From Ardenticatenaceae bacterium (GTDB lineage Bacteria > Chloroflexota > Anaerolineae > Promineifilales > Promineifilaceae): DNA of 16,241 bases. Below the pieces are notes generated by a model that saw only the letters and a program-made list of their open reading frames with translations, was not told the DNA's origin and made no database searches. Positions 699 to 16,241 of this stretch are shown here, in pieces. A program made the translations under genes and the position numbers. Position 1 is the stretch's first letter; each line of letters opens with the position of its first letter. Where the stretch lies: positions 1 through 16,241 of the forward strand of contig JACKBT010000067.1 of NCBI GenBank assembly GCA_020634415.1, written 5' to 3'.

Positions 699-1211
699 AT
701 GAAAGCGATAATTGGATTATTTTCGGAGATGGATGAGGCGGAAACGGCCGTTGCCCGATTCAAACAAGCTGGTTTTGCTGAAAAAGAGATCGGTGTGATG
801 GCGCGTGGGTATCTGGTGAAAGAGCAGTTGCCCCACGACCCCACAACGGCCGATGTGGCCGAGAAGGCGGGTATTGGCGTGGCGGTGGGGGCGACGGCGG
901 GCGGTTTGCTGGGCTTGTTGGCCGCCGGTGTGTCTTTGACGCTGCCGGTGTTGGGGCCGATTCTGGCGGCAGGCAGCCTGGCCCCTATTTTGGGCGGGGC
1001 GGCGGCGGGGGCGGTGTATGGTGGGGCGCTGGGTCTGTTTTTGGGGCTGGATGTGCCGGAACGGGAGGCGCAGTTTTATGTGGATAAGTTGGCGGCGGGG
1101 GCGATTATGGTGATTGTGAATGCTGAGGAGGAGCGGGCGGCTGAAGCCTGGAGTTTGATGCGGGATTTACGGCCGTTGCCGACCCCCACCACTGAACGGC
1201 TGCAACCATAA
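699..1211 (+). CDS. General stress protein-like, DUF1269/glycine-zipper protein
   Basis: 170 aa. The first 40 residues (MKAIIGLFSEMDEAETAVAR...) form a ferredoxin-like alpha/beta unit typical of the YflT/GSP17M type of general stress protein, in which a protein 'senses' nothing enzymatic but carries a beta-alpha-beta fold. Residues 57-117 are a Gly/Ala-rich hydrophobic stretch with GxxxG spacing (VAVGATAGGLLGLLAAG and later AAAGAVYGGALGLFLGL), a glycine zipper that probably sits in or on the membrane. Residues 120-158 return to the alpha/beta fold. No catalytic motif is visible. The start is the ATG at 699 with a weak purine-rich leader (AGGATGGGGG). The TAA stop shares its last base with the next ATG, so the channel gene downstream is translationally coupled. 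This family is widely found near osmotic-stress genes, but its molecular role is unknown. Confidence 0.75.
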   Translation: MKAIIGLFSEMDEAETAVARFKQAGFAEKEIGVMARGYLVKEQLPHDPTTADVAEKAGIGVAVGATAGGLLGLLAAGVSLTLPVLGPILAAGSLAPILGGAAAGAVYGGALGLFLGLDVPEREAQFYVDKLAAGAIMVIVNAEEERAAEAWSLMRDLRPLPTPTTERLQP

Positions 1212-2116
1212 TGGATTGGTTCCCCTTTTCGCTGCCGCAAGCTCTGCAAATACAGATTGCCATCGCCCTGGTCGGGTTGGTGGTCATTGTTATTGTTTTT
1301 GGTCTGGTGCGGCGGCTGACAGCGCGGCGGCTGGTGGATGTGCATACGCGCTACCGGGTGCGTAAGGCGATTACCTTTGCCGGTTATCTTGTTACCGGGC
1401 TTTTCTTGGCGATTGTTTTTAGTGATCAGCTGAGTGGTATAACGGCCGCTTTGGGGATTGCCGGGGCGGGCATTGCGTTTGCCTTGCAAGAGGTGATCGT
1501 TAGTGTGGCGGGCTGGGTGGCTATTGCTTTTGGTGATTTTTATAAGGTGGGTGAGCGGGTGGAATTGGGCGGGATTCAGGGGGATGTGATTGATGTGGGC
1601 ATTTTGCGGACGACGTTGATGGAGTGTGGGCAGTGGGTGGGGGGCAGTTCGTATAACGGCCGTATTGTGCGCGTCGCCAATTCCTTTGTTTTCAAAGAGC
1701 CGGTCTTTAACTACTCCAGCGATTTTCCCTTTTTGTGGGATGAAATTACGCTGCCGGTGAAGTTTGGCAGTGACCGCGACCTGGCGCGGCGCATTTTGCA
1801 ACAGGTAGCCCAGGAACTGCTGACTGATTATGCTACTGAGGCTCAATCTACCTGGAACAAGATGACCCGCAAGTTCATGATTGAGAAAGCCAGAGTTCAG
1901 CCGTCGGTGATGATGGCGGCTAATGATAATTGGCTGGCGTTTACGCTGCGTTATGTGGTGGATTATCGCCAGCGGCGAGTGATGAAGGATAAGCTGTTTA
2001 ATGACATTTTGGATGAATTGGAGGCGACAAACGGCCGTGTGGCCCTGGCCTCCGCAACATTTGAACTGGTGGCTGCGCCCAGTCTTGATGTTCGTTTTAG
2101 AGAACAGCAGAAGTAG
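1211..2116 (+). CDS. MscS-family mechanosensitive ion channel
   Basis: 301 aa, close to the 286 aa of E. coli MscS. Hydrophobic helices lie at about residues 13-35 and 53-71. The pore-lining TM3 follows at about 77-107 (ITAALGIAGAGIAFALQE), with the Gly/Ala packing pattern diagnostic of MscS. The beta-domain after it has FGDFYKVGERVELGGIQG and the IDVGILRTTL strand, both family hallmarks, and an alpha/beta C-terminal domain follows to residue 290. The protein opens under membrane tension to release solutes during hypo-osmotic shock. Residues 139-157 (CGQWVGGSSYNG) form a longer loop than in the E. coli protein. The start overlaps the preceding stop (TAATG), implying a shared mRNA. Which MscS subfamily it belongs to is not resolved. 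Confidence 0.9.
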   Translation: MDWFPFSLPQALQIQIAIALVGLVVIVIVFGLVRRLTARRLVDVHTRYRVRKAITFAGYLVTGLFLAIVFSDQLSGITAALGIAGAGIAFALQEVIVSVAGWVAIAFGDFYKVGERVELGGIQGDVIDVGILRTTLMECGQWVGGSSYNGRIVRVANSFVFKEPVFNYSSDFPFLWDEITLPVKFGSDRDLARRILQQVAQELLTDYATEAQSTWNKMTRKFMIEKARVQPSVMMAANDNWLAFTLRYVVDYRQRRVMKDKLFNDILDELEATNGRVALASATFELVAAPSLDVRFREQQK

Positions 2117-2174
2117 GGTGTCAACCCCATGAATTCCCAAAGAGCCAATTGGTTTTAACACACAAGGAGATTGT

Positions 2175-2687
2175 ATGTTTTTAGGTAAAGATATTATTGG
2201 TAGTCCGGTCATTACGGTGAGTGATGGTCGTCGTATTGGCAAAGTGAAGGATGTTTATTTAACGGCCGATTGCCAGTCGGTTGTTGGCCTTTATTTAGGT
2301 ACAGAGGGTCTGTTTAGCCGCACCACCTATCTGGTGAAGAGTGATGATGTGACGGCGATTGGCCCCGATGCAGCCCTGGTGAAGCACGATCAGGTGATTC
2401 AGGAGTATGACCATGTGGCTGAAGCCAAAGATTGGCTGCGGCGTGATGATCTGCAAGGCCGACCGGTGGACACGATGGGTGGCACGAAAGTGGGCAAGGT
2501 GGGCGATGTGATTTTGGACAAAAACGGCCGTACTCTGGGCTTTAGTCTGAGCCATACCTTTGTGACTGGGCCTGTGGCCGAGAAACGGGCCATTGCCTGC
2601 CATGTGGTGCAGGATGTGGGCAGTGAGGATGGGGCGATGACGATTGATCTGAAAGAGGCGGAGCGGCAGCAGTTGAGTGTTGTGTAG
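2175..2687 (+). CDS. Protein with two PRC-barrel domains
   Basis: 170 aa built from two PRC-barrel units, about residues 1-75 and 85-165. Each opens with the family pattern 'G-x-P-V-x(2-5)-G-x-x-I/V-G-K-V-x-D-V': IIGSPVITVSDGRRIGKVKD in the first and LQGRPVDTMGGTKVGKVGDV in the second. PRC-barrels are small beta-barrels that recruit partners, as in RimM (ribosome maturation) and the photosynthetic reaction centre H subunit. Stand-alone double PRC-barrel proteins are common in envelope or stress contexts, and their partners are mostly unknown. There is no signal peptide or membrane segment, so it is probably cytoplasmic. A strong AAGGAGA (2164-2170) sits 4 bases before the ATG. The next gene begins 2 bases after its stop, which indicates an operon. 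Confidence 0.8.
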   Translation: MFLGKDIIGSPVITVSDGRRIGKVKDVYLTADCQSVVGLYLGTEGLFSRTTYLVKSDDVTAIGPDAALVKHDQVIQEYDHVAEAKDWLRRDDLQGRPVDTMGGTKVGKVGDVILDKNGRTLGFSLSHTFVTGPVAEKRAIACHVVQDVGSEDGAMTIDLKEAERQQLSVV

Positions 2688-2689
2688 CC

Positions 2690-3493
2690 ATGCGTGCGGC
2701 CATTTTTTCGGATGTTCATGGCAATCTGACGGCTCTGGAAGCGGTGTTGGCGGACATCAAACAGCAAGCGCCAGATATGATCTTTTTTGCCGGAGATTTG
2801 TGTTTGGGCGGCGCACGGCCGTTGGCCTGTTTGCAGCGTGTGCGTGAGGAGCCTATCTCCTGTGTGTATGGCAACACGGATGAAGAGGTAGCGCAACGGC
2901 CGCTGCTCTCTGACGATATTCGCGCTGAACGGAAAGCTTTGCAAACTGCCGTTGATGACAATCTAAGTTGGACGCAAATGCAGCTATCTGTGATGGATCG
3001 CGCCTGGCTGCAAGAACTGCCCTTCTACCGCCGCATTTCGCCCACCACCAATCCGCGAGACGATATTTTCATCGTTCACGCCAATCCCCGCGACGTAACC
3101 CGCCATATCTACCCGCCAGAAGCACAGCAGCAAAAGCTCTATGGTGAAATTAAGCAGCCGGATGATGCGGCCGATCTGAGCCATTTGCTGCATGACCTGG
3201 ATACGGGCATTTTGGCTTTTGGGCATTTGCATGTGCCCAATATTCGCCCTTGGCATCGCCTGACTCTGGCGAATATCAGTTCTGTCAGCCAACCGCTGGA
3301 TGGCGATCCGCGTGCTAAATATGGTTTGTTTACCTGGGCCAACGGCCGTTGGTCTATCACCCATCACTATGTGGCCTATGATGTGCAGGCCGAGTTGGCG
3401 CAACTGGCGCACATACAGCCGCCCGGTTGGCAAGCCTTGCACCACGATTTGCAACGGGTGAGCCAGGCAGGGGCGAGGTCGCCTCAGGTGTGA
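2690..3493 (+). CDS. Calcineurin-like metallophosphoesterase (YfcE/MJ0936 type)
   Basis: 267 aa. All metal-binding motifs of the calcineurin-like phosphoesterase fold are present in order: SDVHGN (Asp8, His10), FAGDL (Asp36), YGNTDEE (Asn62), IVHANP (His130) and FGHLHVP (His179, His181). These residues bind two metal ions that hydrolyse a phosphoester. The physiological substrate cannot be read from the sequence; relatives act on phosphodiesters or nucleotides. The insert at about residues 70-105 (between GNTDEE and the third conserved block) and the C-terminal tail after 230 are the variable parts. No good ribosome-binding site precedes the ATG, which lies 2 bases after the PRC-barrel stop, so translation probably depends on the upstream gene. 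The last six codons run into the first copy of a 17-bp tandem repeat that also supplies the TGA stop. Confidence 0.87.
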   Translation: MRAAIFSDVHGNLTALEAVLADIKQQAPDMIFFAGDLCLGGARPLACLQRVREEPISCVYGNTDEEVAQRPLLSDDIRAERKALQTAVDDNLSWTQMQLSVMDRAWLQELPFYRRISPTTNPRDDIFIVHANPRDVTRHIYPPEAQQQKLYGEIKQPDDAADLSHLLHDLDTGILAFGHLHVPNIRPWHRLTLANISSVSQPLDGDPRAKYGLFTWANGRWSITHHYVAYDVQAELAQLAHIQPPGWQALHHDLQRVSQAGARSPQV

Positions 3494-3542
3494 GGTGGCC
3501 TCAAGTTTGAGGTGGCCTCAAGTTTGAGGTGGCCTCAAGTTT
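3475..3542. repeat. 17-bp tandem repeat, four copies, spanning a stop codon
   Basis: The unit GAGGTGGCCTCAAGTTT is present in three identical copies (3492-3508, 3509-3525, 3526-3542). A degenerate first copy (3475-3491, GAGGTCGCCTCAGGTGT) precedes them. The first copy codes for the end of the phosphoesterase, and its last base begins the stop codon. Because 17 is not a multiple of three, expansion of the array would not extend the protein in frame. Each unit contains a short imperfect palindrome (GAGG/CCTC). Identical copies suggest recent expansion by slippage. Confidence 0.95.
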
Positions 3543-3627
3543 AAGGTTGTTGGGAATTGGCTCGTTTCTTATAATCGTAATGGTTATGAAGGAAACGGCC
3601 GTTACCCCCCCACCTGCAACAAACAAA

Positions 3628-3900
3628 ATGGAGTGCCGCGTTGGCTGCGGCGCTTGCTGCATTGCCCCCTCCATCTCCTCCCCCATACCCGGTATGCCAC
3701 AGGGCAAACCGGCCGGCGTGCGCTGCATCCAACTATCGCCAGATAATCGCTGCCTGTTGTTTGGCCGCCCCGAACGGCCCACTGTTTGCAGCCGCTTTCA
3801 GGCCAGTTTGGAGATGTGTGGTTACACCACAGAAGATGCCCTTCTGTATTTAACGATGCTGGAAACAGCCACCCAGCCAGTCACTGCCCCCTCTGAGTAA
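3628..3900 (+). CDS. YeiW/YkgJ-like cysteine-cluster protein (UPF0153)
   Basis: From ATG 3628 the product is 90 aa and begins [20 protein letters not shown], with Cys3, Cys7, Cys10 and Cys11. Further cysteines follow in GVRC, NRCLLFG, PTVC and EMCG, giving eight in all. This is the pattern of the YkgJ/UPF0153 family, thought to chelate zinc or an iron-sulfur cluster. The segment [20 protein letters not shown] is a signature of the small YeiW-like branch, whose members start directly at MECR. The reading frame is open further upstream, with ATGs at 3580 and 3586, but none of the candidate starts has a convincing ribosome-binding site. I chose 3628 by family length; an extra 14-16 N-terminal residues are possible. 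Function is unknown. The array at 3475-3542 separates it from the phosphoesterase gene. Confidence 0.8.
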
Positions 3901-3967
3901 TTTGCCATCAGGAACTATTGTCCACCCACGCACGTTATGGGGTGATAGGCTAACTGGTGCGATTGGA

Positions 3968-3994
3968 CTTTAGCTGGAACGATTCCGGCTAAAG
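3968..3994. repeat. Intergenic hairpin (12-bp stem, 3-base loop)
   Basis: CTTTAGCTGGAA at 3968-3979 pairs with TTCCGGCTAAAG at 3983-3994. All 12 positions pair if one G-U pair is allowed in RNA on the plus strand. No U-tract follows, so it is not a classical terminator. It sits in the 141-bp space between the cysteine-cluster gene and the lipoprotein gene and could be an mRNA leader structure or a dispersed palindromic repeat. Confidence 0.6.
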
Positions 3995-4029
3995 CTGCCA
4001 CTCCGCCAATATATTTGTGGACGATTACA

Positions 4030-4035
4030 AAGGAG
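4030..4035 (+). promoter_or_regulatory. Ribosome-binding site that decides the lipoprotein start
   Basis: AAGGAG sits 6 bases upstream of ATG 4042. It rules out the earlier in-frame start at 4015, which has no such site and would put nine polar residues in front of the signal peptide. Confidence 0.85.
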
Positions 4036-4041
4036 TCAAGA

Positions 4042-5397
4042 ATGCGTAAGTGGACAATTTTGTTGATGATTTTGCTATTGGCAGCGGCTTGCGGTGCGGG
4101 GGAGGTGGAGCCAGCGGCGATGCAGGCGACACCGCTGCCTACTCCAAATGAGGTTCAGGATGAGGCGGCGGATATAGATACATCGCCTGACCCGATGTGT
4201 ACTGATGCGGGAGACGGCCGTTCCCTGGCCATCTTCCCCCAAGAAGGCCGTGAACTCATGATCAACGGCTTCGACCTGCCTCCCGGTTCGCAGCCCACCC
4301 TGCGCCTCACCACCCTCAACGACACTGGCCCCGATGAGCAAATCGAACGGACCCCCACTGTGAACGAGGAAGGCATGTTCAGCGAACGGATTACCCTGCC
4401 TGAGTATGACTACATGCGCTGGAACGTGCGTCTGCTGCATGATGCGGGTGTGTTATGTTACTACGTGGTGATGGGGCAGGATGAGGTGCTGGAGATGGGC
4501 TGGGATGGCCCGCGTGAAGAGGATGGGGCCATACAGAACGATTTGGCTCTGATGGCAGAACAAACGGGCATTCCCTTGGCGGAATTGGAAGCACAAATGG
4601 CTTATGAGGATGCCATCACTGAATTGCAGGCACGGCTTCAGGCCAATGAGGCGGCTACGTATGCCGGGTTATGGCTGGAGCATGAACCGGTGTACCGGGT
4701 TGTGGTGGCCTTTACGGAGAATGGGCAGGAGACGGTGGCCAAGTATGTGGCTGAAGGGGAGGCGTTAACGGCCGTTCTCGACATCCGCCCCGCCACCTAT
4801 ACCCAAGCCCAACTGATGGCTGACCAACAATCGCTGAATCAAGTATTGGAAACGGCCGATTTCGACTTCTTCACCAGCGTAGATGTGCCTCATAACCGCG
4901 TTGAATTAGGCGTACCCACCGAAGAAATTTGGGAAGCGTATGTGGGCACACACGATGTTCAACTACCCCCCAGCGTTGTCCTCACCTTTGCCTTCCCCGG
5001 CGGCATTACCTTCACCCCACCGCCCAACCTCACCCCCGCCCCAGACATTTACATGGCTCAACTGGCCCTGCCGAGCATGGCTTTCATGGAAGCATTACTC
5101 GAGGCCAATCTCATCGTAGACAACAACTGTTTGCTGGCTCAATACCCGGAGATGCCCGACGAGAAGTGGTTGATTATCTGGCAGCCTGGTTACTATGTGC
5201 ATGAGGCCGATGGGATTGTTCAAATCCTCGACCAGGAGGGCAAAGTGGTCGCCACTGTGGGCGAAAAGCTCTATATGGGTGGTGGTGAAGGCTCTCTGCC
5301 TGCGGAAAACAAGTTAACGGCTCCCATTCCCGAAGCCTGCCACGCCGATCATGTCTGGTATATGGGTGAGTTTTTGCCGGAGGAGTATCGGGACTAA
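4042..5397 (+). CDS. Predicted lipoprotein of unknown function with protease-prodomain-like segment
   Basis: 451 aa. The N-terminus MRKWTILLMILLLAAAC is a lipoprotein signal peptide, with Cys17 as the likely lipidated residue. It resembles the one in the 691-aa protein at 9299-11374, which also ends LLLAAAC. A Thr/Pro/Asp-rich linker (residues 20-55) follows, then a beta-rich region (60-150). Residues 168-225 contain LALMAEQTGIPLAELEAQMA and YAGLWLEHEPVYRVVVAFT. This arrangement recalls the helical-plus-strand segment seen in propeptides of secreted serine proteases (streptogrisin/alpha-lytic type), and FTSVDVPHNRVELGV (277-291) recalls the second part of such a unit. No protease domain or catalytic triad follows. 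A C-terminal beta module (359-445) has WLIIWQPGYYV, VQILDQEGKVVATVG and paired Cys363 and Cys433. Function is not recognised. The prodomain resemblance is from memory of the motif and needs a profile search. Confidence 0.75.
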   Translation: MRKWTILLMILLLAAACGAGEVEPAAMQATPLPTPNEVQDEAADIDTSPDPMCTDAGDGRSLAIFPQEGRELMINGFDLPPGSQPTLRLTTLNDTGPDEQIERTPTVNEEGMFSERITLPEYDYMRWNVRLLHDAGVLCYYVVMGQDEVLEMGWDGPREEDGAIQNDLALMAEQTGIPLAELEAQMAYEDAITELQARLQANEAATYAGLWLEHEPVYRVVVAFTENGQETVAKYVAEGEALTAVLDIRPATYTQAQLMADQQSLNQVLETADFDFFTSVDVPHNRVELGVPTEEIWEAYVGTHDVQLPPSVVLTFAFPGGITFTPPPNLTPAPDIYMAQLALPSMAFMEALLEANLIVDNNCLLAQYPEMPDEKWLIIWQPGYYVHEADGIVQILDQEGKVVATVGEKLYMGGGEGSLPAENKLTAPIPEACHADHVWYMGEFLPEEYRD

Positions 5398-5463: not shown

Positions 5464-6663
5464 CTATCCCGTAAATGCCTGAATATCCGTCTGTGCCCGC
5501 CCCAGGATGAGGGCATGAATGTCGTGTGTGCCTTCGTAGGTGTTCACGGCTTCCAGGTTGAGAACGTGGCGAATGACGTGGAATTCGTCGGAGATGCCGT
5601 TGCCGCCGTGCATGTCGCGGGCGATGCGGGCGATGTCTAGGGCTTTGCCACAGGAGTTGCGCTTGACGAGGGAGATCATTTCGGGGGTGGCTTTGCCTTC
5701 ATCCAGCAAACGGCCGACACGCAGCACGGACTGCAAACCAATGGTGATCTCGGTCATCATGTTGGCTAATTTCCATTGAATGAGCTGATTGGCGGCTAAC
5801 GGCCGTCCAAACTGCGTCCGGTCCAGCGTGTATTGCCGCGCCGCGTGCCAGCAAAACTCCGCTGCGCCCAATGCCCCCCAAGAAATGCCATAACGCGCCT
5901 TATTCAGGCAGCCAAACGGCCCCTTCAACCCCTGTACATGGGGCAGGAGCTGCGCTTCCGGCACAAAAACCTCATCCATCACAATCTCGCCCGTGATGCT
6001 GGCCCGCAGGCTGAACTTGCCTTCCGTTTTAGGCGCACTTAGTCCCGCCATCCCCTTTTCCAACACAAAGCCGCGAATTGTGCCATCGGCGACATCATCA
6101 CCGCCAAACACCTTCGCCCAAACGACGAAGACATCAGCAATAGGTGAGTTGGTGATCCACATCTTATTGCCATGCAGCACCCAGCCGCCGTCCGTTTTGG
6201 TGGCGCGGGTTTCCATGCTGCCCGGATCACTGCCGTGATTTGGCTCTGTGAGACCAAAGCAGCCTACCCATTCGCCGCTGGCGAGCTTGGGCAGGTACTT
6301 TTGCCGCTGCTCTTCTGTGCCGTAGGTGTAAATGGGGTACATCACCAGCGAGCTTTGCACACTCATGGTGCTGCGATAGCCGCTGTCCACCCGTTCCACT
6401 TCGCGGGCGATGAGGCCGTAGCAGACATGGTTCAGGCCAGCCCCGCCATATTCTTCTGGGATGGTGGAGCCAAGCAGGCCCATCTCGCCCATTTCGTTGA
6501 AGATGGAGCGGTCAAAGGTTTCGTGTCGGTGGGCTTCCAACACGCGGGGCATAAGTTTGCCCTGACAATAATCATGGGCGGCATCGCGTACCATGCGTTC
6601 TTCGTCAGTTAGTTGGTCGCTAAATAGGAAGGGATCACGCCATCTAAAAGTTGGTTTTGCCAT
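5464..6663 (-). CDS. gcdH: Glutaryl-CoA dehydrogenase (acyl-CoA dehydrogenase family)
   Basis: 399 aa, the usual length. The FAD-dependent enzyme oxidises and decarboxylates glutaryl-CoA to crotonyl-CoA in lysine, tryptophan and aromatic-compound degradation. Diagnostic features are Arg97 in [14 protein letters not shown] (the glutarate-binding arginine, equivalent to human Arg94), [16 protein letters not shown] (135-150, flavin/substrate loop) and the catalytic base Glu377 in [17 protein letters not shown]. The last motif separates this family from short-chain acyl-CoA dehydrogenases. The start ATG (6663-6661) has a GAGAGG ribosome-binding site upstream. No electron-transfer flavoprotein, CoA-transferase or other pathway gene is adjacent, so it appears to be a stand-alone transcription unit. 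A non-decarboxylating variant or a related acyl-CoA dehydrogenase cannot be excluded from sequence alone. Confidence 0.93.
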
Positions 6664-6849: not shown

Positions 6850-8460
6850 TTACTTGGAATGGTGAGAATTAGCGGCTGGCAGGATGAAGTAGAAGGTGCT
6901 GCCCTGGCCGGGCTGGCTTTCGACCCCGACTTGCCCGCCTAGCTTTTCGGCGATGCGGCGGACGATGGACAGGCCCAGACCATGCCCTTCGATTTTGCCT
7001 AGCTGTTCCAGGCGTTCAAACGGCCGAAATAAACGCCCTTGCTCCTCAACCGTCATCCCGTGCCCGTTGTCTGTTACTTCAAAACGAATGAGCTGGTGGG
7101 GCAGATGCTGATAATTGAGACGGACAATTTGTGAAGCGCCGCCGTATTTGATGGCGTTGCTGATGTAGTTGACCCATATCTCCTCTATCCAGGAGGCATA
7201 CCCCAAGGCCATAGGCCAGGCATCTGGCTGGGTGATTTGGGGGCGATGTTCTTCCACGAGGTCGGCGAGGCGCTCGATGGCTTCGTGGACGGTACGGCCG
7301 ATATTGACGGGGACGACTTCTAGGTCTGCTTTGCGCACTTGGGAGAGCAGGAGCAGTTCGTCTATGATGTTGTTCATTTTACGGCCGTTATTATGAATAT
7401 GCGTTGCCTGTCTGTGTAAAAAGTCATCTAGGCCCACGCTGTCTAGGGCGAGCATTTCGGCAAAGCCAATGAGATTGCTCAGAGGGGCTTTCAAATCGTG
7501 GGCGACGGTGTGCGCGAAGGCATCTAGCTCTTCATTGTGGGCCTGTAGTTCTCGTGTGCGCTGCTGTTCGGCTTCGTACAGGCGCACATTTTCTAAGGCC
7601 AGAGCTACGTGGTTACTCATGGCCATCATTAGCTCTTTGTCTTGTTCGGTAAAATCTGGCTGTTTATAGCCGTTCATGGCGATGAGGGTGCCCATTGTCT
7701 GGCCCTGATAATGGACGGGAACAACGATGATGGAGCCAATGTTTAATTCGGCGCGGCGCTCGAAAATGGCGGAACTGACTCGTGGATCGGGTTCGTTTTT
7801 TAGGGCCAGGGCTGGCTGCTGATGGCGCAGCACCCAGCCGGGCAGGCCATCCATAATGGCCTGGAAGGTGTAACGGATAATGTTTTCGGCTCCGGGGCCG
7901 CCTTTGGCGAAGTGGATGACTTCTTTTTTGGCGATGTCTACGGTGTAAAGGATAACCCGGTCGGCGGGCAGCACTTCGGCGACGCTGTTGGTGACGATTT
8001 GGAGGAGGCGCGGCAGGTTTTGGTAGGCGATTTGGGATCTGGCGATTTGGTAGAGGGCGGCGGTGCGCTTGAGGGAGGCTCTTAGTTGGTTTTCTACGTC
8101 CAATCGTGGGGTGATGTCGCGGAAAACGCCGAGGGTGGTGAGGAAACGGCCGTCTTCCATGCAGGCATTGACGTTGCCGTCTACATGGATTTTTTGACCA
8201 GATTTGGTTACAAAGATGGTTTCTAATTGCTGGCAATGCTGCCCTGCTTGTACTGATTTGAAGAGGCGGCGGCAATGTTCTATGTGTTCAGGATGGACGA
8301 TTTGCTCAAAATGGAGTTGGTAGGCTTCTGTTTCGGTGTAACCCATAATTTGCAGCCAGCGTTGGTTTACGAACCGGAAACGGCCGTCTGGCCCCACGCC
8401 CTGAATCAAATCATTGGTGTGGTGAAAAAAATGGCGATAAATCGCTTCCTGAACCTGCAT
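6850..8460 (-). CDS. Soluble PAS-GAF sensor histidine kinase
   Basis: 536 aa. Domains in order: PAS (about 8-118, ending in the PAC-like LGVFRDITPRLD), GAF (about 130-295, with VALALENVRLYEAE at its exit helix), HisKA dimerisation (about 305-380) and HATPase_c (about 420-528). The phosphoacceptor is His321 in AFAHTVAHDLKAPL. The ATP-binding boxes are N (Asn435 in NYISNAIKYG), G1 (DNGHGM, 464-469), F (LFRPFERL) and G2 (GHGLGLSIV). No membrane segment or signal peptide is present, so it should sense a cytoplasmic or diffusible signal through PAS/GAF. No heme- or chromophore-binding residue can be assigned: it lacks an obvious bilin cysteine context. No response regulator gene is nearby, making it an orphan kinase. 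The ATG at 8460-8458 has only a weak AGG upstream. Confidence 0.92.
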   Translation of the reverse strand: MQVQEAIYRHFFHHTNDLIQGVGPDGRFRFVNQRWLQIMGYTETEAYQLHFEQIVHPEHIEHCRRLFKSVQAGQHCQQLETIFVTKSGQKIHVDGNVNACMEDGRFLTTLGVFRDITPRLDVENQLRASLKRTAALYQIARSQIAYQNLPRLLQIVTNSVAEVLPADRVILYTVDIAKKEVIHFAKGGPGAENIIRYTFQAIMDGLPGWVLRHQQPALALKNEPDPRVSSAIFERRAELNIGSIIVVPVHYQGQTMGTLIAMNGYKQPDFTEQDKELMMAMSNHVALALENVRLYEAEQQRTRELQAHNEELDAFAHTVAHDLKAPLSNLIGFAEMLALDSVGLDDFLHRQATHIHNNGRKMNNIIDELLLLSQVRKADLEVVPVNIGRTVHEAIERLADLVEEHRPQITQPDAWPMALGYASWIEEIWVNYISNAIKYGGASQIVRLNYQHLPHQLIRFEVTDNGHGMTVEEQGRLFRPFERLEQLGKIEGHGLGLSIVRRIAEKLGGQVGVESQPGQGSTFYFILPAANSHHSK

Positions 8461-8533: not shown

Positions 8534-9247
8534 CTATTCGCCATCAACTTGAGGCGATTTGGATTCGTGCCGAAATTTGGCCGACCACTGTTTGTAGAGA
8601 TGGGTAAAACTGTTACCGGCTTCGTCCACCCACCGACTGGGGGAAACTGCTTCTTCGGCGAGGTAGGTGGCTTCCCGTTGGGCTAAGGCGGTTTGTTCGG
8701 TTTCGGTTAACGGCCGTATGTCCATCTGTTCGTGGCGCGGAATGACCACAACCCGGACGACGGGGGTTTGATAATCTAGCTGAATGGTGATGCCTGGCGG
8801 CGGCACTTGAAAAACCGCGAATATCTGGCGCGGATACCAATCGGTTTCGACGATGCCGGTTAGGGCGGTGAGGCCAGCGGGGGCTTGGGGTGAGGGCAGC
8901 AGCAGGCTGACAAAGCCGGGCGGGGTTTGCAGGGTGTAGCCCAGGCCCAGCCCGAAATGGGACGCGGCGAATTGTTGGATGATGTTCGGCTGGTTGGTTT
9001 CTCGGGCCAGGGTGGGCAGGTTGGGGATGTGAATACGGCCGTTTTCACCCACCGTAATCGTTACCGCAGTCAAATAGCCATAAAACAGCGTCCAGCCTAC
9101 CGACTGCCCATCGAGCCAGGGTTTGCAATGAAACGGAACCGCCGCCGGGGGTGTGGCGGCGGCTTTGGTTTTGTCGTCATCGGTAATATGTGGTCGGGAA
9201 CGAACGGGATCGGGAAGGTAGGCAACCGATTTGGCAAATTTTAGCAT
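8534..9247 (-). CDS. Hypothetical protein, 237 aa
   Basis: I do not recognise this protein. It has no signal peptide or membrane helix. The N-terminal 45 residues are polar and Pro/Ala-rich. The folded part starts near PFHCKPWLDGQSVGWTLFYG (about 38-57). It continues with alternating strands (AVTITVGENGRIHIPNL, GLGYTLQTPPGFVSLLLPSP, GITIQLDYQTPVVRVVVIP) and ends in a charged helical tail (about 180-237). The lone Cys41 and the motif GWTLFYG recall DUF6065-like hypothetical proteins, but I am not certain. The ATG at 9247-9245 lacks a clear ribosome-binding site, and a strong hairpin lies only 12 bases upstream on the minus strand. The open frame, coding-like composition and lack of a better frame on the other strand support it being real. 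It could be co-transcribed with the triple-DsbA gene upstream. Confidence 0.7.
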   Translation of the reverse strand: MLKFAKSVAYLPDPVRSRPHITDDDKTKAAATPPAAVPFHCKPWLDGQSVGWTLFYGYLTAVTITVGENGRIHIPNLPTLARETNQPNIIQQFAASHFGLGLGYTLQTPPGFVSLLLPSPQAPAGLTALTGIVETDWYPRQIFAVFQVPPPGITIQLDYQTPVVRVVVIPRHEQMDIRPLTETEQTALAQREATYLAEEAVSPSRWVDEAGNSFTHLYKQWSAKFRHESKSPQVDGE

Positions 9248-9298: not shown

Positions 9299-11374
9299 CT
9301 AATTACTATCTTGTTCGGCCAAAATGGTTATGGCTTCTTCAAAGGCAGATAAGGGCTGTGCGCCGGAGATGAGACGGCCGTTTAGGGCAAAAGTGGGTGT
9401 TCCCCGAATGCCCAGGCTGAGGCCATATTGCAAGTCGGCATCCACTGCGGCTTGGTGTTGATGAGAGTTGAGGCATTCACTGAAAACGGCCGTGTCCAGC
9501 CCCAACTGCTCGGCATAGCTGATGAAGAAATCGGCTGCATTATTTTGCCCGCTCCACTCACCTTGCTTCATAAACAGCATATCGTGCATGTCCATGTACG
9601 CTTCCTGGTCCCAGGCACACCGCGCCGCTTCTGCGGCAATAAAAGCTTGGGGATGGATTTGCGTCAGCGGTAAATCCTTAAACACATAATACACCATTCC
9701 CGTTTCCACATAATTTGCCATTAAGCCGGGCAAGGTTTGGGCAAAATGACGGGCACAGAAGGGGCATTGGAAGTCCGTAAATTCCACAATCGTCACGGGC
9801 GCATTGGGGTCGCCGATGCTGAAACTGCCGCTAATGTCCACATCAATAATGGTGGGCGGCTGCTGTTCCTGCTGCTGCTGTTGTTGTTCTTGGGGACGAT
9901 ATGCTTCAGCCAGCGTCCCTTCTTCGGCGCGGCTAATGGCAAACTCGAACAAATCGTAGGGTTGGGCACCATTGATGGGGAAGCCATCAATGAAGAAGAA
10001 GGGAGTGCCATTCACCCCAAACTCGGCGGCTTCATTCATATTGGCCTGCACCAAATCGTCGTAGCGGCGCTCGGTGACACATTGGTCAAAGACCTCGGTG
10101 TCTAGACCCAGTTCGGTGGCTAAATCTACAAACACAAGTTGGGCCGCCGCTTCACCCTGACCGCCCCATTCGCCCTGGGTGGCAAAAAGCAGGTCGTGCA
10201 TCTCGACATAGGCTTCTTGTTCACCGGCGCAGCGGGCGGCGTTGGCCGCAATACGGGCTTCGGGATGGAGGTTTTCCAGAGGCAGGTCTTTAAGCATGTA
10301 GAAAACTCGTCCGGTTTCAATCATCTGGCTCAGGAGTTGGGGCATGGTTTGGGCGACATGGCGCTGGCAGAAGGGGCATTGGTAATCGGTGAATTCGACA
10401 ATGCGCACGGGGGCATCTTCATCGCCTAAGGTCATGGCTACGGAGTCGTAGTCGAGGGGGACGGGGGTGGGCAAGGCGGCTGCTTGAGCGGCCGTTTCTT
10501 CCGCTTCGCTGACAATGGAGCCGCCACCTTGGATGATGGCGATGGCCTGGTTGAAAACATCTAGAGGTTGTGCGCCTACCAGTATCTGGTCGTTGAGGAA
10601 GAAACTGGGGGTGCTGCGGACACCCAGCGAACTGCCCAGGGATATGTCGGCTTCGATTTGCTGTGTATATTTGCTTTCCGTTAAGCAAGGTACAAAGGAG
10701 TCGGCGTTTAGGCCAATGGTTGCGCCGTAGTCAGCGAAGACTTCGTTGGCGTTGGCATTAGACCATTCGGAGGCATCGGCGAAGAGCAGGTCGTGCATTT
10801 GCCAATAGGCTTCTACGCCTTGTTCACCGGCGCAGCGGGCGGCATTGGCGGCGGCCATTGCTTGGGGGTGTATGGAGGTGAGGGGGAAGTCGTAGTAGAT
10901 CATGAGGACTTCGCCGTTTTTGATCTGATTTTCCAATAAGGGGGGAAGGGTTTGGTTGGCGAAGCGGGAGCAGTAGGGGCATTGGAAGTCGGAGAACTCT
11001 TCCATGACGATGGGGGCATCCAGGTGGCCGCGATAGGGATGCCCATCTTCGGTGAAGCCGATGGGAATGCCGTAGTCGTCTAGGAGGCTGGTTTCGGTGG
11101 TGGCGGGCTTGGTGGTTGGTTCGGGGGCAGTGGTGGGAGATTCGGTGTTGGTGGTAACGGCCGTTTCCTCGACACTCTCTCCTTCCGTTGCTATCGGAGC
11201 CACATCCATCACCTCGTCACTGGTGGCATTGGTGGCAAAAATATCTTCTATTGTGCTGGGCGCATCGGCATTGGCGGCCGATGGCTCACTAGCCGAGTTA
11301 CCCACTGGGCCGCACGCGGCAGCCAAGAGCAGCATGAAGAAGGTGCTAATTAGTAAGATTCGTTGTTGTTTCAT
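9299..11374 (-). CDS. Lipoprotein with three tandem DsbA-like thioredoxin domains
   Basis: 691 aa. The signal peptide ends in LLLAAAC with Cys21 as the likely lipidation site, and a Ser/Thr/Ala/Glu-rich tether follows (25-100). Three homologous DsbA/thioredoxin_4 domains come next. Active-site CxxC motifs are at 132-135 (CPYC), 333-336 (CPFC) and 537-540 (CPFC), about 200 residues apart. Each is followed by a cis-proline loop (STP 254-256, GTP 456-458, GTP 658-660) and by a second conserved cysteine pair (181/230, 382/432, 586/634). Each domain has the AARCA and MHDLLF/MHDMLF motifs of the family. The linker between domains 2 and 3 is Gln-rich (residues 495-505). DsbA-like proteins catalyse disulfide formation in exported proteins; here all three sites look intact. 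Family members normally carry one such domain. No DsbB or VKOR partner is in the window. Confidence 0.93.
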   Translation of the reverse strand: MKQQRILLISTFFMLLLAAACGPVGNSASEPSAANADAPSTIEDIFATNATSDEVMDVAPIATEGESVEETAVTTNTESPTTAPEPTTKPATTETSLLDDYGIPIGFTEDGHPYRGHLDAPIVMEEFSDFQCPYCSRFANQTLPPLLENQIKNGEVLMIYYDFPLTSIHPQAMAAANAARCAGEQGVEAYWQMHDLLFADASEWSNANANEVFADYGATIGLNADSFVPCLTESKYTQQIEADISLGSSLGVRSTPSFFLNDQILVGAQPLDVFNQAIAIIQGGGSIVSEAEETAAQAAALPTPVPLDYDSVAMTLGDEDAPVRIVEFTDYQCPFCQRHVAQTMPQLLSQMIETGRVFYMLKDLPLENLHPEARIAANAARCAGEQEAYVEMHDLLFATQGEWGGQGEAAAQLVFVDLATELGLDTEVFDQCVTERRYDDLVQANMNEAAEFGVNGTPFFFIDGFPINGAQPYDLFEFAISRAEEGTLAEAYRPQEQQQQQQEQQPPTIIDVDISGSFSIGDPNAPVTIVEFTDFQCPFCARHFAQTLPGLMANYVETGMVYYVFKDLPLTQIHPQAFIAAEAARCAWDQEAYMDMHDMLFMKQGEWSGQNNAADFFISYAEQLGLDTAVFSECLNSHQHQAAVDADLQYGLSLGIRGTPTFALNGRLISGAQPLSAFEEAITILAEQDSN

Positions 11375-11784: not shown

Positions 11785-13335
11785 ATGTCTTTACCACCAT
11801 TTACACTCTGGAATATTCTTTTGGCCGCTGCGCCAATTTTGGTTGTTTTGTATTTGATGATCGGCCGTAATTGGGGCGGGAGTAAGGCGGGGCCGGCCGG
11901 ATGGGCGGTCTCGGTGCTGGTGGCGGTGCTGTTTTTTGGGGCTGGTGGCGATTTGCTGCTGGTGGCTTGGGGGAAGGCGGTGCTGTTGGCCTGGTTTGTG
12001 TTGTACATTATTTGGATGGCTTTGCTGCTTTACCATACGGTTAATGAGGCGGGGGCGATTACCTTGATTGGTGAGGAGCTGCCGGGGCTGGCGCAGGATA
12101 GGCCGGCGCAGGCGTTGTTGATTGCCTGGCTGTTTGGCTCGTTTTTGCAGGGGGCGACGGGGTTTGGTGTGCCAGCGGCGGTGGTGGCGCCATTGCTGTT
12201 GGGGATGGGGTTTGGGGCGGATACGGCCGTTACCATTGCGCTCCTGGGTCATTCCTGGGCCGTTACCTTTGGCTCGTTGGGTTCTTCGTTTGTGTCGCTG
12301 ATGGCGGCGACTGGTTTGCCGGGGGAGGTGTTGGCGGGGCCAACGGCCGTTATCCTGGCAATTTGCTGTTTGGGCTGTGGGGCGGGCGTGTTGTGGCTGG
12401 TGGGGGGGAAAACGGCCGTGCAGCAGCGCGGCCTCTTCATGATAGTTCTCACCGTCGTCATGGGCGGCGTACAGTGGGGCATTGCCCAGTTGGGGCTGTA
12501 TACCCTGGCTTCTTTTGGGGCGGGCTTTGTGGGGTTAATGGCCGCCATTGTTTATTTCTTGCGTTCGGGGCGCGGTGAGCAGCGCTTTGATGCCCGTCGT
12601 TTGCTGCAAGCCTTTATGCCCTACTTACTGCTAATTGTGATTATCGTTTTGGGTGAGTTGGTGCTGGATGATGTGCTAGGGGTGGTGCAGATTAATCCTG
12701 TTTTTCCCGAAGTGGTAACGCGCTTTGGCTGGCTGACGGTGGCAGGCACGGGCCGTTCTATTAACTTGTTTGGTCATGCCGGTGCGCTGCTGCTTTACAC
12801 CAGTCTGGTCACTTTAGGCTGGTATTTGTGGCAGAGCAAACGCTCCTCTGCAAGCCTGCTCCCGCGCAACTGTGACAAGTATAACGGCCGTCTCATCTTC
12901 CAAAAAACCCTCAAAGGCAGCGTCAAGCCCACCATTGGCATCTATGCGCTGGTGGCGATGGCCTTAACTATGCAGCACGCGGGCATGACACAAATGCTGG
13001 CTGAAGCTCTTAGCAATACGGGGGCCATCTTCCCCTTCCTTAGCCCTTTCATTGGTGCCTTGGGGTCGTTTATGACGGGCAGCAATACTAACAGTAATGT
13101 GGTTTTTGGGCAGTTGCAGCAGCAGACGGCGATGGCTTTGCAGTTGGTTGTGCCCATTATTTTGGCGGCGCAAACGGCCGGTGGTGCCATGGGCGGCACC
13201 TTTGCGCCAGCGAAAGTGATTGTAGGCTGCAGCACTGTGCCGGGGGCAGATGACGGCCGTGTGCTGAAATCGGCCACCCTTTACAGCCTCATCATTTTGG
13301 TTTTTGTGGGGGTGATTGTCTGGTTCGCAGCTTGA
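11785..13335 (+). CDS. LctP-family L-lactate permease
   Basis: 516 aa from the chosen ATG, near the usual length of about 530-560 aa. The protein is almost entirely hydrophobic, with roughly 12-14 membrane helices. Family signatures are WLFGSFLQGATGFGVPAAV (115-133), LGSFMTGSNTNSNVVFGQLQ and QTAGGAMGGTFAPAKVIVGC (463-482). LctP proteins import lactate or glycolate with protons across the cytoplasmic membrane. The frame stays open upstream to a TTG at 11587, but that would add 66 polar residues encoded by repeat DNA (GDERWEIGDWRLE), so ATG 11785, whose product starts MSLPPFTLWNILLAA, is preferred. No strong ribosome-binding site is seen before it. No lactate dehydrogenase (lldEFG, dld) or lactate-utilisation regulator is next to it, so the substrate is not supported by context. 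Confidence 0.9.
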   Translation: MSLPPFTLWNILLAAAPILVVLYLMIGRNWGGSKAGPAGWAVSVLVAVLFFGAGGDLLLVAWGKAVLLAWFVLYIIWMALLLYHTVNEAGAITLIGEELPGLAQDRPAQALLIAWLFGSFLQGATGFGVPAAVVAPLLLGMGFGADTAVTIALLGHSWAVTFGSLGSSFVSLMAATGLPGEVLAGPTAVILAICCLGCGAGVLWLVGGKTAVQQRGLFMIVLTVVMGGVQWGIAQLGLYTLASFGAGFVGLMAAIVYFLRSGRGEQRFDARRLLQAFMPYLLLIVIIVLGELVLDDVLGVVQINPVFPEVVTRFGWLTVAGTGRSINLFGHAGALLLYTSLVTLGWYLWQSKRSSASLLPRNCDKYNGRLIFQKTLKGSVKPTIGIYALVAMALTMQHAGMTQMLAEALSNTGAIFPFLSPFIGALGSFMTGSNTNSNVVFGQLQQQTAMALQLVVPIILAAQTAGGAMGGTFAPAKVIVGCSTVPGADDGRVLKSATLYSLIILVFVGVIVWFAA

Positions 13336-13620: not shown

Positions 13621-14244
13621 TTAGAGAATAACAGGTTTCTGTTTGACTTGGCAGTGGGCGGCATCAATGATGGCTAGGATGTGAGCCACAGCGAGGGATT
13701 GCTCGCCATCGGCGTTCAGCACCACATAATCAAACTCCTCCATCCGTTTCATCTCCTGGCGGGCCATCGTGATGCGCAGTTGCAGCCCTTCGGTGGTTTC
13801 CGATTTGCGTTCCACCAGCCGTTTAACGAGGTCTTCTTCGGATTTGGGGGTGAGGAAGACGAAGGTGGCGTTGGGGATGAGTTTACGGATGGTGGCCGCG
13901 CCTTGTACGTCTACGCGCATGACGACATCTTTGCCGCTTTTGAGGGCATCTCGGATTTGTTGTTTGGGTACGCCTTTGTAGTCGTTGTAGACGATGGCCC
14001 ATTCGAGCATTTCGTCGGCTTCGATCATGCGGGCGAATTCGTCGCTGGAAACGAAGATGTAGTCGCGGCCATCTATTTCACCTTCGCGGGGGGGGCGGGT
14101 GGTGGCGGTGACAACGAAGTGGAATGAATCTGGACGTAGGGCGATTAATTCGCGGGCGATGGTGTCTTTGCCGACACCGGAGGGGCCGGAGATGACAACA
14201 AGTTGGGGATGATACGGCCGTTTGTAACTGTTTAAGCTGCTCAA
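13621..14244 (-). CDS. gmk: Guanylate kinase
   Basis: 207 aa, the normal length. The enzyme phosphorylates GMP to GDP with ATP and is essential for guanine nucleotide supply. Motifs: P-loop GPSGVGKDT (20-28), TATTRPPREGEIDGRDY (GMP-binding TTR..R and GxDY region), AIVYNDYKGVPKQQI and VMRVDVQGAATIR. The lid region follows with TPKSEEDLVKRLVERKSE. The start is a TTG (14244-14242) supported by AGGTG five bases upstream (complement of 14250-14254). No ATG or GTG lies between it and the P-loop. An Asp replaces the more common Gly/Ser in the P-loop (GVGKDT). It diverges from the zinc-ribbon gene. In many bacteria gmk is followed by rpoZ or coaBC; neither is present here. Confidence 0.95.
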   Translation of the reverse strand: MSSLNSYKRPYHPQLVVISGPSGVGKDTIARELIALRPDSFHFVVTATTRPPREGEIDGRDYIFVSSDEFARMIEADEMLEWAIVYNDYKGVPKQQIRDALKSGKDVVMRVDVQGAATIRKLIPNATFVFLTPKSEEDLVKRLVERKSETTEGLQLRITMARQEMKRMEEFDYVVLNADGEQSLAVAHILAIIDAAHCQVKQKPVIL

Positions 14245-14249
14245 GCTTG

Positions 14250-14302: not shown

Positions 14303-14686
14303 ATGCCATATTACGATTACATTTGCAAGAGCTGCCATAAGGGCAGCCGCCTGTTTTTTACCTATGCGGAGTACGGCACGAAGGAGCCGATATGCCGTCA
14401 CTGCCAGAGTAAGGATTTGCAGCGGCGCATTGGCCGAGTGGCGTTGGGCAAGTCGGAAGATGCGCGGATGGATTCGATGATGGATGAGTCGGCGCTGGCG
14501 GGGTTGGATGAGGAGGACCCGCGGGAGATCGGCCGTTTTATGCGTAAGATGAGCCGGGATATGGGCGAGGATATGGGTGAGGAGTTTAATGAGGTGGTGG
14601 ATCGCCTGGAGAAGGGGCAGTCGCCAGAGGATATTGAGGCAGCGATGCCTGATTTAGCCAGTGGTGGAGATGATGGGTTTGTGTAA
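14303..14686 (+). CDS. FmdB-type zinc-ribbon protein
   Basis: 127 aa. Residues 1-40 are the FmdB/CxxC_CxxC zinc ribbon: MPYYDYICKSCHKGSRLFFT with Cys8/Cys11 and ICRHCQSKDLQRRI with Cys31/Cys34. The four cysteines probably bind one zinc. The tail (50-127) is acidic and Met/Asp-rich (MDSMMDESALAGLDEEDP, then FMRKMSRDMGEDMGEEFNEV) and predicted helical, as in longer family members. The family was named for a putative regulator of formamidase expression, but its role is unknown in most bacteria. The ribosome-binding site AGGAG (14294-14298) is 4 bases from the ATG. The TAA stop (14684-14686) overlaps a copy of ACGGCCGT. Confidence 0.85.
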   Translation: MPYYDYICKSCHKGSRLFFTYAEYGTKEPICRHCQSKDLQRRIGRVALGKSEDARMDSMMDESALAGLDEEDPREIGRFMRKMSRDMGEDMGEEFNEVVDRLEKGQSPEDIEAAMPDLASGGDDGFV

Positions 14687-14715
14687 CGGCCGTTGAGCCG
14701 CGACATTAGGCCAGA

Positions 14716-14788: not shown

Positions 14789-14859
14789 CTGTAGGCGCGG
14801 TTTCTTACCACATTTTAGGCCATCTGTTTTCAGATGCGGTGGGAATAACGCGCCTACAG
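14789..14859. repeat. 71-bp nested palindrome
   Basis: CTGTAGGCGCG (14789-14799) and CGCGCCTACAG (14849-14859) are perfect inverted repeats. Inside them CATCTG (14821-14826) pairs with CAGATG (14831-14836) around TTTT, and TTACCAC at 14805-14811 can partly pair with GTGGGAATAA. The whole segment can fold as one long arm. It has no open frame and lies upstream of the CSLREA protein gene. It has the same build (outer arms plus separate inner hairpin) as the composite elements elsewhere but a different sequence. Confidence 0.7.
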
Positions 14860-14939
14860 GGAGCAAGCGGCCGTTTGCCTGTTGGGGACGTTTTGGGGAC
14901 GGAGGCTGTGTATAAAGCCCGCCATATCAGATATTGACA

Positions 14940-14945
14940 AAGGAG
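14940..14945 (+). promoter_or_regulatory. Ribosome-binding site deciding a GTG start
   Basis: AAGGAG lies 6 bases upstream of GTG 14952. The first in-frame ATGs (14964, 14979) lie inside the signal peptide and have no such site, so GTG is preferred. Confidence 0.8.
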
Positions 14946-14951
14946 TGTATT

Positions 14952-16241
14952 GTGAAACGTTTAATGATTCTTATTTTTATGGGATTAATTTTGGGCGGGC
15001 TGGGGCTGATGGTGAACCATGTGGCGGCTGGTGGCAGTACGATTGTGGTGACAACAACGGCCGATGTAGATGTGAATATAGACGGGCAATGTTCCCTGCG
15101 CGAGGCCATTATTGCCGCTAATACCAATACGCCTTCCGGCATTGTGCTGGGAGAATGCCCGGCAGGTTCAGACACGAGTGAAGATTTTATTGTGCTGACC
15201 AGCGGCGAGAGCTACACCCTGGCGATTGCGGGTAAGGACGAAGACGCCGGCCTGACGGGTGATCTGGATATTGTGGATGATATTGACAGTGAGATTTTGG
15301 CCGATGTGGTGATCATAACTGATGAGGCGGGGCAGGCGACGATTGATGGTGCGGGCGTAGACCGTGTGCTGCATTTATTGGGGGCGCGGGTGCGGCTGGA
15401 TAATTTGGTGGTGCGCGGTGGCAATCCTGGCGCGGCCAGTGGTGGCGGTGTGCTGAATGAATCAGGACATCTGGCCGTGAGTGACAGCCAAATCATCCTC
15501 AATGAATCCAGTTTGGGTGGTGGTATTGCGAGTAAGGAAGGTGAGCTGCGGCTGACGGATGTGATTGTGCGGATTAATGTGGCGACGCAGGGCGGTGGTT
15601 TGGGTTTGGTGGGGAATACGGCCGTTTCCCTTAACAACAGCGACATTACCTTAAACACAGCCAATGAAGGCGGCGGTATTTATGCCGATGCTGCCAACGG
15701 GGCCATCACGATTGAGGGTGGTTCGGTGAGCAATAACGGCACGGCCAGCGGTGCAGGTGGCGGCTTATATGTAGCCAGCAGCAGTCCCGTAACGATTGAC
15801 CAGACATCTATCAGTGAGAATGAGACGACTAGTGGTGTGGAAGTGGGGCATGGCGCGGGCATTTACATGGGGGATGCGGCCAGTATGCTGCATGTGCGTA
15901 ATGCGTCTATTGAGCAAAATACGGCTGATGCCTTTGGCGGCGGCATTTTTAGTCATGGGACGGTGGTGATGACGCGCACGATGGTGATGTCGAATACGGC
16001 CGTTTCCGGCGGCGGTGTTCACATCAGCGAAGGCCAGCAGATAACTGTGACCAGTTCCGGGTTTGTGCATAATGCGGCAATGGGGAACGCAGGCGGGGGC
16101 ATTATGGCGGCCAAAGCCAGTCTGGTTGCCAGTACCGTAAGCCAAAACAGTGCTGTGGTGGGCGCGGGCATCTATGCGGATGAACTCACAGCCACCTACG
16201 TGGAGTTTGTGAATAACCGGGCCGATAGCTGGGGTGGGGCA
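14952..16241 (+). CDS. Exported CSLREA/beta-helix surface protein, 5' part
   Basis: 430 codons from GTG 14952 run without a stop off the right edge. The start KRLMILIFMGLILGGLGLM is a signal peptide, with probable cleavage after HVAA (about residue 28). It is followed by TIVVTTTADVDVNIDGQCSLREAIIAAN, whose CSLREA hexapeptide defines the N-terminal module of many secreted bacterial repeat proteins. From about residue 155 the chain consists of irregular repeats of about 20-30 residues with GGGI/GGGL/GGGV and N-T-A/N-N/N-S-A turns (NTANEGGGIYA, NTADAFGGGIFS, NTAVSGGGVHI, NSAVVGAGIYA). This is typical of right-handed beta-helix proteins and similar to the GGxI repeats of chlamydial Pmp proteins. 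It is likely a cell-surface or secreted adhesin-like or carbohydrate-facing protein; no catalytic site is evident. The C-terminal anchor is outside the window. Confidence 0.87.
   Translation, partial: MKRLMILIFMGLILGGLGLMVNHVAAGGSTIVVTTTADVDVNIDGQCSLREAIIAANTNTPSGIVLGECPAGSDTSEDFIVLTSGESYTLAIAGKDEDAGLTGDLDIVDDIDSEILADVVIITDEAGQATIDGAGVDRVLHLLGARVRLDNLVVRGGNPGAASGGGVLNESGHLAVSDSQIILNESSLGGGIASKEGELRLTDVIVRINVATQGGGLGLVGNTAVSLNNSDITLNTANEGGGIYADAANGAITIEGGSVSNNGTASGAGGGLYVASSSPVTIDQTSISENETTSGVEVGHGAGIYMGDAASMLHVRNASIEQNTADAFGGGIFSHGTVVMTRTMVMSNTAVSGGGVHISEGQQITVTSSGFVHNAAMGNAGGGIMAAKASLVASTVSQNSAVVGAGIYADELTATYVEFVNNRADSWGGA

Follow-up and report, generated by a model that had tools for sequence, protein, structure and literature searches.

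A highly iterated palindrome on a CGGCCG core, with lineage-specific flanks, in Chloroflexota

The highly iterated palindrome (HIP) of cyanobacteria, HIP1, has been on record since 1995. What causes it is still unsettled, in part because no other group offered a large example. Here we describe a palindrome of comparable abundance, ACGGCCGT, in a 16,241-nt contig of an Ardenticatenaceae bacterium (Chloroflexota; JACKBT010000067.1), which is called the window throughout and denotes the whole stretch of DNA that was analysed, and in genomes related to it. Its core, CGGCCG, is abundant genome-wide, the flanking bases are specific to the lineage, the copies are maintained at the level of the DNA, and they do not persist in lineages that lack the motif. 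With a second HIP system, in which relatives differ in dialect, some have lost the motif and a candidate enzyme is at hand, comparison can be used to test the cause.

HIP1 and the alternative cyanobacterial HIPs occur at 300-2,700 copies per Mb with observed/expected ratios (O/E) of 55-228 (Elhai 2015, PMC4390886), and a 2012 paper states that octamers as frequent as HIP1 are found in very few bacterial genomes (PMC3497702). The Chloroflexota motif resembles the cyanobacterial HIPs, as described in PMC4390886, in several respects. Firstly, it is a GC-rich, 8-base palindrome, here at 437-2,088 copies per Mb and, in five genomes, an O/E of 65-91. Secondly, one-base deviations concentrate at the first and last base. 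Thirdly, relatives use alternative palindromes, here TCGGCCGA, GCGGCCGC and, in one genome (G045), TGCCGGCA. Finally, solitary methyltransferases are suspected in both cases. As a criterion of the HIP class, PMC4390886 gives the presence, in all genomes with the motif, of a methyltransferase that recognises part of it, while here a candidate is found in 29 of 31 motif-rich genomes and its specificity for CGGCCG is putative.

The differences are equally clear. The core of HIP1 (GCGATCGC) is CGATCG, whereas that of the Chloroflexota motif, in another phylum, is CGGCCG. Unlike in cyanobacteria, several flank dialects occur on one core inside one order, there is no universal 5-methylcytosine (m5C) enzyme, the candidate is an amino-methyltransferase of another family that lies beside nurA in some genomes, and there is a state without fixed flanks, at 3,000-5,130 cores per Mb. 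The DNA uptake sequences (DUS) and uptake signal sequences (USS) of Neisseriaceae and Pasteurellaceae are likewise short, high-copy motifs maintained genome-wide, and like the CGGCCG motif they show related dialects between species. Unlike the Chloroflexota motif, they are described as not palindromic (PMC1939737).

In the open-access literature, which leaves subscription papers and preprints outside the search, we found no report of the motif in Chloroflexota. Neither CGGCCG nor Chloroflex occurs in the main text of PMC4390886, and passages of PMC12772301 and PMC13340088 do not mention the motif. The methylation motifs reported for CL500-11, also a member of the Chloroflexota, in a study that does not cover this order, are GANTC, TTAA and GCWGC (PMC6329791). 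The 2.9 Mb CL500-11 genome BD1 carries 77,932 GCWGC sequences, 93% of them methylated as N4-methylcytosine (PMC6329791, Table 3); by rough estimate this is several times the chance number and perhaps a related case. As far as this search goes, the lineage, the sequence, the dialects and the candidate machinery are new, and the kind of phenomenon is known from the cyanobacterial HIPs. The original prediction, made from the window alone, was of a HIP1-like, DNA-level phenomenon outside cyanobacteria, and the counts, site retention and dialect-specific tripeptides given below support it.

Abundance in the window and in related genomes

An exact-match scan of the window gave exactly 28 perfect copies of ACGGCCGT, from position 744 to 16003, or one per 580 bases, in agreement with the predicted count of at least 28 where about 0.25 are expected. 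The mean of 200 dinucleotide-preserving shuffles was 0.24 (maximum 2), first- and third-order Markov models expect 0.28 and 1.04 copies, and the runner-up palindromic 8-mer has 4. The word was also predicted to be read as Thr-Ala-Val (TAV), Asn-Gly-Arg (NGR) and Arg-Pro-Leu (RPL), and the translations of the window's open reading frames (ORFs) that were read do contain it in three frames, e.g. ETAVARF, YNGRIV and GARPLAC. The spacing within the window has a coefficient of variation (CV) of 0.71, vs 0.95 +/- 0.16 in simulations. The copies are as follows (all exact matches to ACGGCCGT, no strand assigned):

744..751, ORF 699-1211 (TAV)
1169..1176, ORF 699-1211 (RPL)
1656..1663, MscS-like ORF (NGR)
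2031..2038, MscS-like ORF (NGR)
2524..2531, PRC-barrel ORF (NGR)
2815..2822, phosphoesterase ORF (ARPL)
3342..3349, phosphoesterase ORF (NGR)
3595..3602, ORF 3529-3900 (TAV)
4214..4221, ORF 4015-5397 (DGR)
4768..4775, ORF 4015-5397 (TAV)
5799..5806
7381..7388
8146..8153
8380..8387
8710..8717
9035..9042
9374..9381
9486..9493
11157..11164
12223..12230, permease ORF (TAV)
12343..12350, permease ORF (TAV)
12412..12419, permease ORF (TAV)
12884..12891, permease ORF (NGR)
13253..13260, permease ORF (DGR)
14214..14221, guanylate kinase ORF
14686..14693, end of ORF 14303-14686, reaching into the intergenic stretch
15618..15625
15996..16003

Genome-wide counts were taken from relatives of the window, not from the window's own genome, and the window's guanylate kinase served as the marker for finding them. 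The closest homologue is 74% identical among genome contigs and 88% identical in the protein collection, and the relatives are Chloroflexota, including Candidatus Leptofilum and Promineifilum, both placed in the order Promineifilales in the NCBI taxonomy; the order of the 56 genomes searched is probably Promineifilales. A first set of 41 genomes, reached via 41 of 80 marker loci, contained 7 to 15,176 copies of ACGGCCGT each. The order-wide set of 56 was counted for ACGGCCGT, the reversed word and the CGGCCG core, and it splits cleanly: the share of cores that read ACGGCCGT is at least 0.34 in 28 genomes and at most 0.15 in the other 28. The high-share genomes carry 2,887-15,176 copies (437-2,088 per Mb), with just 40-459 copies of the reversed word per genome. 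The O/E, calculated for five genomes on a base-composition expectation with GC estimated from genome samples, is 65-91.

A genome-wide excess over a third-order Markov expectation had been set as the test of the prediction. In 685 kb of DNA from motif-rich relatives, with the motif masked, 20 copies are expected and 1,038 were observed, so that the excess holds and is not confined to the window, and the mapping of relatives that share the palindrome gives 28 of the 56 genomes of the order. In outgroup loci of the Anaerolineales type CGGCCG is mostly below expectation, the exceptions being L077 and L078 (46 and 43 vs about 22).

The common core is CGGCCG and the flanking bases vary by lineage: ACGGCCGT (A dialect) is the dialect of 28 genomes, TCGGCCGA (T dialect) of two and GCGGCCGC (G dialect) of one, and we refer to these 31 as octamer genomes. 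In samples of 40-61 kb, the T dialect accounts for 75 of 110 cores in G029 and 53 of 68 in G047, and the G dialect for 63 of 79 in G027. Six further genomes (G032 and G055-G059) are flankless: CGGCCG stands at 3,000-5,130 per Mb, the top density of about 5,130 per Mb (one core every 195 bases) being that of G032, and samples of 15-49 kb show no octamer that dominates; ACGGCCGT in G055 comes closest, at 14 of 109 cores. A Promineifilum-like group has a weak core excess, and in G002, G031, G043 and G045 the reversed words outnumber the cores. G045 is a switch to an unrelated core: it has 14 copies of ACGGCCGT but 3,665 of TGCCGGCA in 4.0 Mb (18 in a 13-kb sample), CGGCCG is down to 447, and TGCCGGCA replaces it.

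Maintenance of sites, effects on proteins and mobile elements

Single sites are held in place at the DNA level, within genes and outside them. In 11 related genome pairs of 79-93% identity, 82-100% of the aligned ACGGCCGT sites are unchanged in the partner, vs 13-57% of 8-mers matched for GC count and 0-44% of the other palindromes so matched. G018 and G011, the pair with the most sites, have 112 of 136 unchanged at 79.6% identity (both directions counted). Where the amino acid is conserved in this pair, ACG codons are kept in 28 of 31 cases within sites vs 80 of 154 elsewhere, and GCC codons in 28 of 31 vs 310 of 516; non-coding sites are kept in 12 of 13. It had been proposed that selection or bias acts on the DNA, not the protein, and the retention at synonymous and non-coding positions, together with the use of all three frames, bears this out. 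At about 73% identity exact retention goes down to 60 of 198 positions. Flankless cores are retained at 50-78% (controls 20-42%), and the cores of the weak, Promineifilum-like group barely so, at 30-47% (controls 21-30%).

In four genomes without core excess, none of the 32 positions that align with a site carries the core, whereas 14% of control hexamers are kept; therefore sites do not persist where the system is not running. The corresponding figures are 10 of 107 in the weak group (control 12%), 3 of 19 in T-dialect genomes (control 8%), 4 of 16 in flankless genomes (control 12%) and 0 of 6 in the G-dialect genome. Switching of dialect in place was considered and set aside, as TCGGCCGA stands at 2 of 19 T-dialect positions aligned to A-dialect sites, too few to support a claim.

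The near-misses are also unevenly distributed. With the motif masked, A-dialect near-misses at the outer base are enriched (374 vs 165 expected), with A to T changes at 4.2-fold, A to G at 2.5-fold and A to C at 0.8-fold, and those in the core are depleted (154 vs 250 expected). Outer near-misses are enriched in the T dialect (35 vs 11.5) and not in the G dialect (7 vs 9). Partners with a single mismatch in the genome pairs deviate at the outer base in 13 of 16 cases.

The motif alters the tripeptide usage of proteins, dialect by dialect. It is denser in coding than in non-coding DNA (1.63 vs 1.11 per kb), and about half of the coding sites (456 of 875) read Thr-Ala-Val. This tripeptide occurs 27.0 times per 10,000 in A-dialect ORFs (177,106 residues) vs 3.4 in outgroups, about 8 times as often, and 450 of the 478 A-dialect occurrences are encoded by ACGGCCGT. 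In the T dialect Ser-Ala-Glu (SAE) and Ser-Ala-Asp (SAD) reach 17.2 and 12.2 per 10,000 (outgroups 2.6 and 2.3), and in the small G-dialect sample of 10,219 residues Ala-Ala-Ala (AAA) reaches 39.1 (outgroups 13.5). The ORFs were called mechanically and these rates are estimates. A DNA motif is thus seen to alter tripeptide usage across proteomes.

Mobile elements carry the motif as well. Scans of a viral collection found close ACGGCCGT pairs in at least 120 stretches and triples in 14. Among the matches listed, 106 viral loci are at least 4 kb long; 18 of them reach HIP level, with a maximum of 3.7 copies per kb, and at least three pairs within these 18 share a contig. Four loci (L367, L404, L355 and L363), putative viruses or other mobile elements, have 3.0-3.7 copies per kb vs 1.5-2.1 in the hosts; the viral densities are biased upwards because the loci were picked for close motif pairs. 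Twenty proteins of three loci were scanned, and the families include anti-repressor, endolysin-like, partition and helicase-loader proteins. The triple of the T-dialect motif was found in six viral stretches, none clearly at HIP density, and distant relatives of the candidate enzyme in 29 loci of the collection showed no association with the motif. As a plain sequence tag, the motif may help to link viruses and mobile elements with these uncultured hosts.

A candidate methyltransferase and its neighbourhood

Weak PF01555 matches in four octamer genomes led to one common protein of about 660 residues, with an S-adenosylmethionine (SAM) motif DPMMGGGTT at 74-82, a catalytic TDPPY at 475-479 and a long insert between them. 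This order of motifs, with the insert, resembles that of alpha-class amino-methyltransferases. In NCBIfam and PADLOC it falls near the DUF1156, PglX and HmaB enzymes, at 71-76 bits vs an NCBIfam cut-off of 1,000. It has the SAM-binding and catalytic stretches in common with these anti-phage methyltransferases, whose models are defence-associated and span about 920-970 positions. The structure model has a mean predicted local distance difference test score (pLDDT) of 86.6, and a fold search with it returned general methyltransferase folds only, the best template modelling score (TM-score) over the query being 0.15 among 50 listed.

At a threshold of 100 bits or more, the candidate is present in 43 of 56 genomes, namely 29 of the 31 octamer genomes and 14 of the remaining 25 (Fisher p 0.0013, kinship ignored), and it is absent from G002, G031 and G045, three genomes without core excess. 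The two octamer genomes that lack it, G021 and G053, may be incomplete drafts: searches failed to find guanylate kinase in 5 of 22 genomes and NurA in 6 of 56. A loss is also possible, because G002, the sister of G021 on the marker tree, lacks the candidate too. The gene of G047 is split across two frames. In the enzyme tree the two T-dialect enzymes form a weakly supported group of long branches, and that of the G dialect forms a lineage of its own. The T-dialect species are likewise close, with weak support, in the guanylate kinase tree, and therefore common descent explains the enzyme grouping as well as a changed specificity does.

The original prediction of a link to a methyltransferase stands in part: a solitary amino-methyltransferase of putative specificity accompanies 29 of 31 octamer genomes, but an m5C enzyme (PF00145) is found in only 17 of them (26 of all 56 genomes) and is ruled out as the common cause. 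Repair of the very-short-patch type is likewise rejected as the common cause: of 41 genomes, 8 have Vsr, and five of these are octamer-rich. Well-matching PF01555 enzymes do not qualify either, with only weak matches in four octamer genomes, and a PF01555 search of ten genomes without the candidate gave no strong match in common. No candidate enzyme and no common m5C or strong PF01555 enzyme was found in the flankless genomes G032 and G055-G059. A type II restriction-modification site would be avoided by its host, with the nuclease encoded next to the methylase, and here the site is enriched in the genomes; no restriction-enzyme gene was recognised beside the candidate in 10 loci, whose ORFs were read by eye and partly domain-scanned.

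The candidate gene adjoins a NurA gene (PF09376) in eight genomes (G003, G006, G027, G028, G029, G033, G046 and G047), which cover the A, T and G dialects. Four of these loci were read in their neighbourhood, and HerA (PF01935) was confirmed in one, G029. The apparent order is icd, thiD, a MarR-like regulator, yjjX, the enzyme, nurA, a protein of about 210 residues and herA, where the names other than NurA and HerA were read from ORF starts. G002, without core excess or enzyme, keeps the same locus minus the enzyme, and flankless G059 has the nurA-herA locus without it. In G005 there is a possible second methyltransferase gene (L346:5344-6204, minus strand; DPPY motif, read by eye), which sits between nurA and the 210-residue gene.

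Possible causes

The reading that we favour, tentatively and somewhat short of an even chance, is a HIP system on the CGGCCG core. The solitary enzyme of about 660 residues, partly related to the DUF1156 phage-defence methylases, would recognise the core and mark it, most likely with N4-methylcytosine. Repair or recombination guided by this mark would turn near-misses into the full motif and protect existing copies, and the reader could be the HerA-NurA end-resection pair, encoded beside the enzyme in several genomes. The flanking base would be fixed by the enzyme or a partner, clade differences giving rise to the dialects, and the motif would be maintained by a drive-like process, not by a function of the host genes. 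In its favour are the genome-wide counts, the retention of sites at synonymous and non-coding positions and their loss where the system is not running, the pattern of near-misses, the distribution of the enzyme over the genomes, including its absence from G002, G031 and G045, and its place beside nurA in eight genomes of three dialects. In Synechocystis, methylation of plasmid DNA by the HIP1-core enzyme is reported to increase transformation by integration 11- to 161-fold (as cited in PMC6604393), which suits a role in recombination or as a mark of self.

Several points weigh against this reading. The candidate is present in 14 genomes without the octamer and missing from all six flankless genomes and from G021 and G053; its presence therefore does not suffice, and the bare core does not require it. 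In G043 part of the candidate gene lies at a contig end, yet there is no core excess. TDPPY is common in adenine methylases, whereas CGGCCG contains no A, and therefore the mark may be on another base or site. Related genomes are not independent. Five octamer genomes inspected (G001, G005, G011, G017 and G018) carry the enzyme away from nurA, and NurA, which 50 of the 56 genomes have irrespective of the motif, is ruled out as a distinguishing factor; the adjacency is therefore a hint of function, not proof.

The strongest rival is a DNA uptake signal: cells would preferentially take up DNA of their own dialect, and transformation would spread and keep the sites by molecular drive, as in Neisseria and Haemophilus. 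Dialects round a fixed core, even genome-wide use, singly kept sites and motif-dense mobile elements are in line with it. However, according to PMC1939737 uptake sequences are not palindromes, and the density here reaches about 2,090 per Mb, and we regard this explanation as possible, if unlikely. Biased mismatch repair alone, the GmeC-directed ratchet of Elhai, in which core methylation directs repair, mutations to the full palindrome are kept and the sites are functionless, accounts for the enriched outer and depleted core near-misses, as for HIP1 (PMC4390886). We think it unlikely, as A and T flanks would make no new GC step, which the model appears to require, the roughly 5,130 cores per Mb of G032 exceed the predicted saturation near 1,000 per Mb (PMC4390886), and the spacing is random.

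A further and distinctly doubtful proposal is a recombination code coupled to methylation. The solitary methyltransferase, of a little-studied family and ancestrally beside nurA-herA, would mark the palindrome for HerA-NurA end resection, so that it would act like Chi but as a methylated palindrome. Gene conversion biased towards the signal would spread it through the genome, rewriting proteins (TAV, SAE/SAD, AAA), and dialect changes would isolate lineages genetically.

The original prediction also named a chromosome-organising protein, but the even spacing that would suit it is not seen: in three large sets the CV is 0.97-1.09, i.e. about 1, as for random spacing. Direct selection on sites that bind an abundant protein of the nucleoid or of chromosome segregation is improbable in our view; a palindrome would suit a dimer and single sites are conserved, but besides the random spacing there is no positional order, copies number up to about 15,000 and coding density exceeds non-coding density. 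An artefact of composition, codon or peptide preference, which the Thr-Ala-Val reading of half the coding sites might suggest, is ruled out by the large third-order Markov excess, the use of all three frames and non-coding sites, the dialect-specific tripeptides, site retention in excess of controls, codon retention far above that of the same codons elsewhere and the scarcity of the reversed word (40-459 per A-dialect genome).

Apart from the palindrome, the minus strand of the window encodes, at 9299-11374, a protein of 691 residues in which an apparent lipoprotein signal is followed by three thioredoxin/DsbA-like domains in tandem (three PF13462 stretches).

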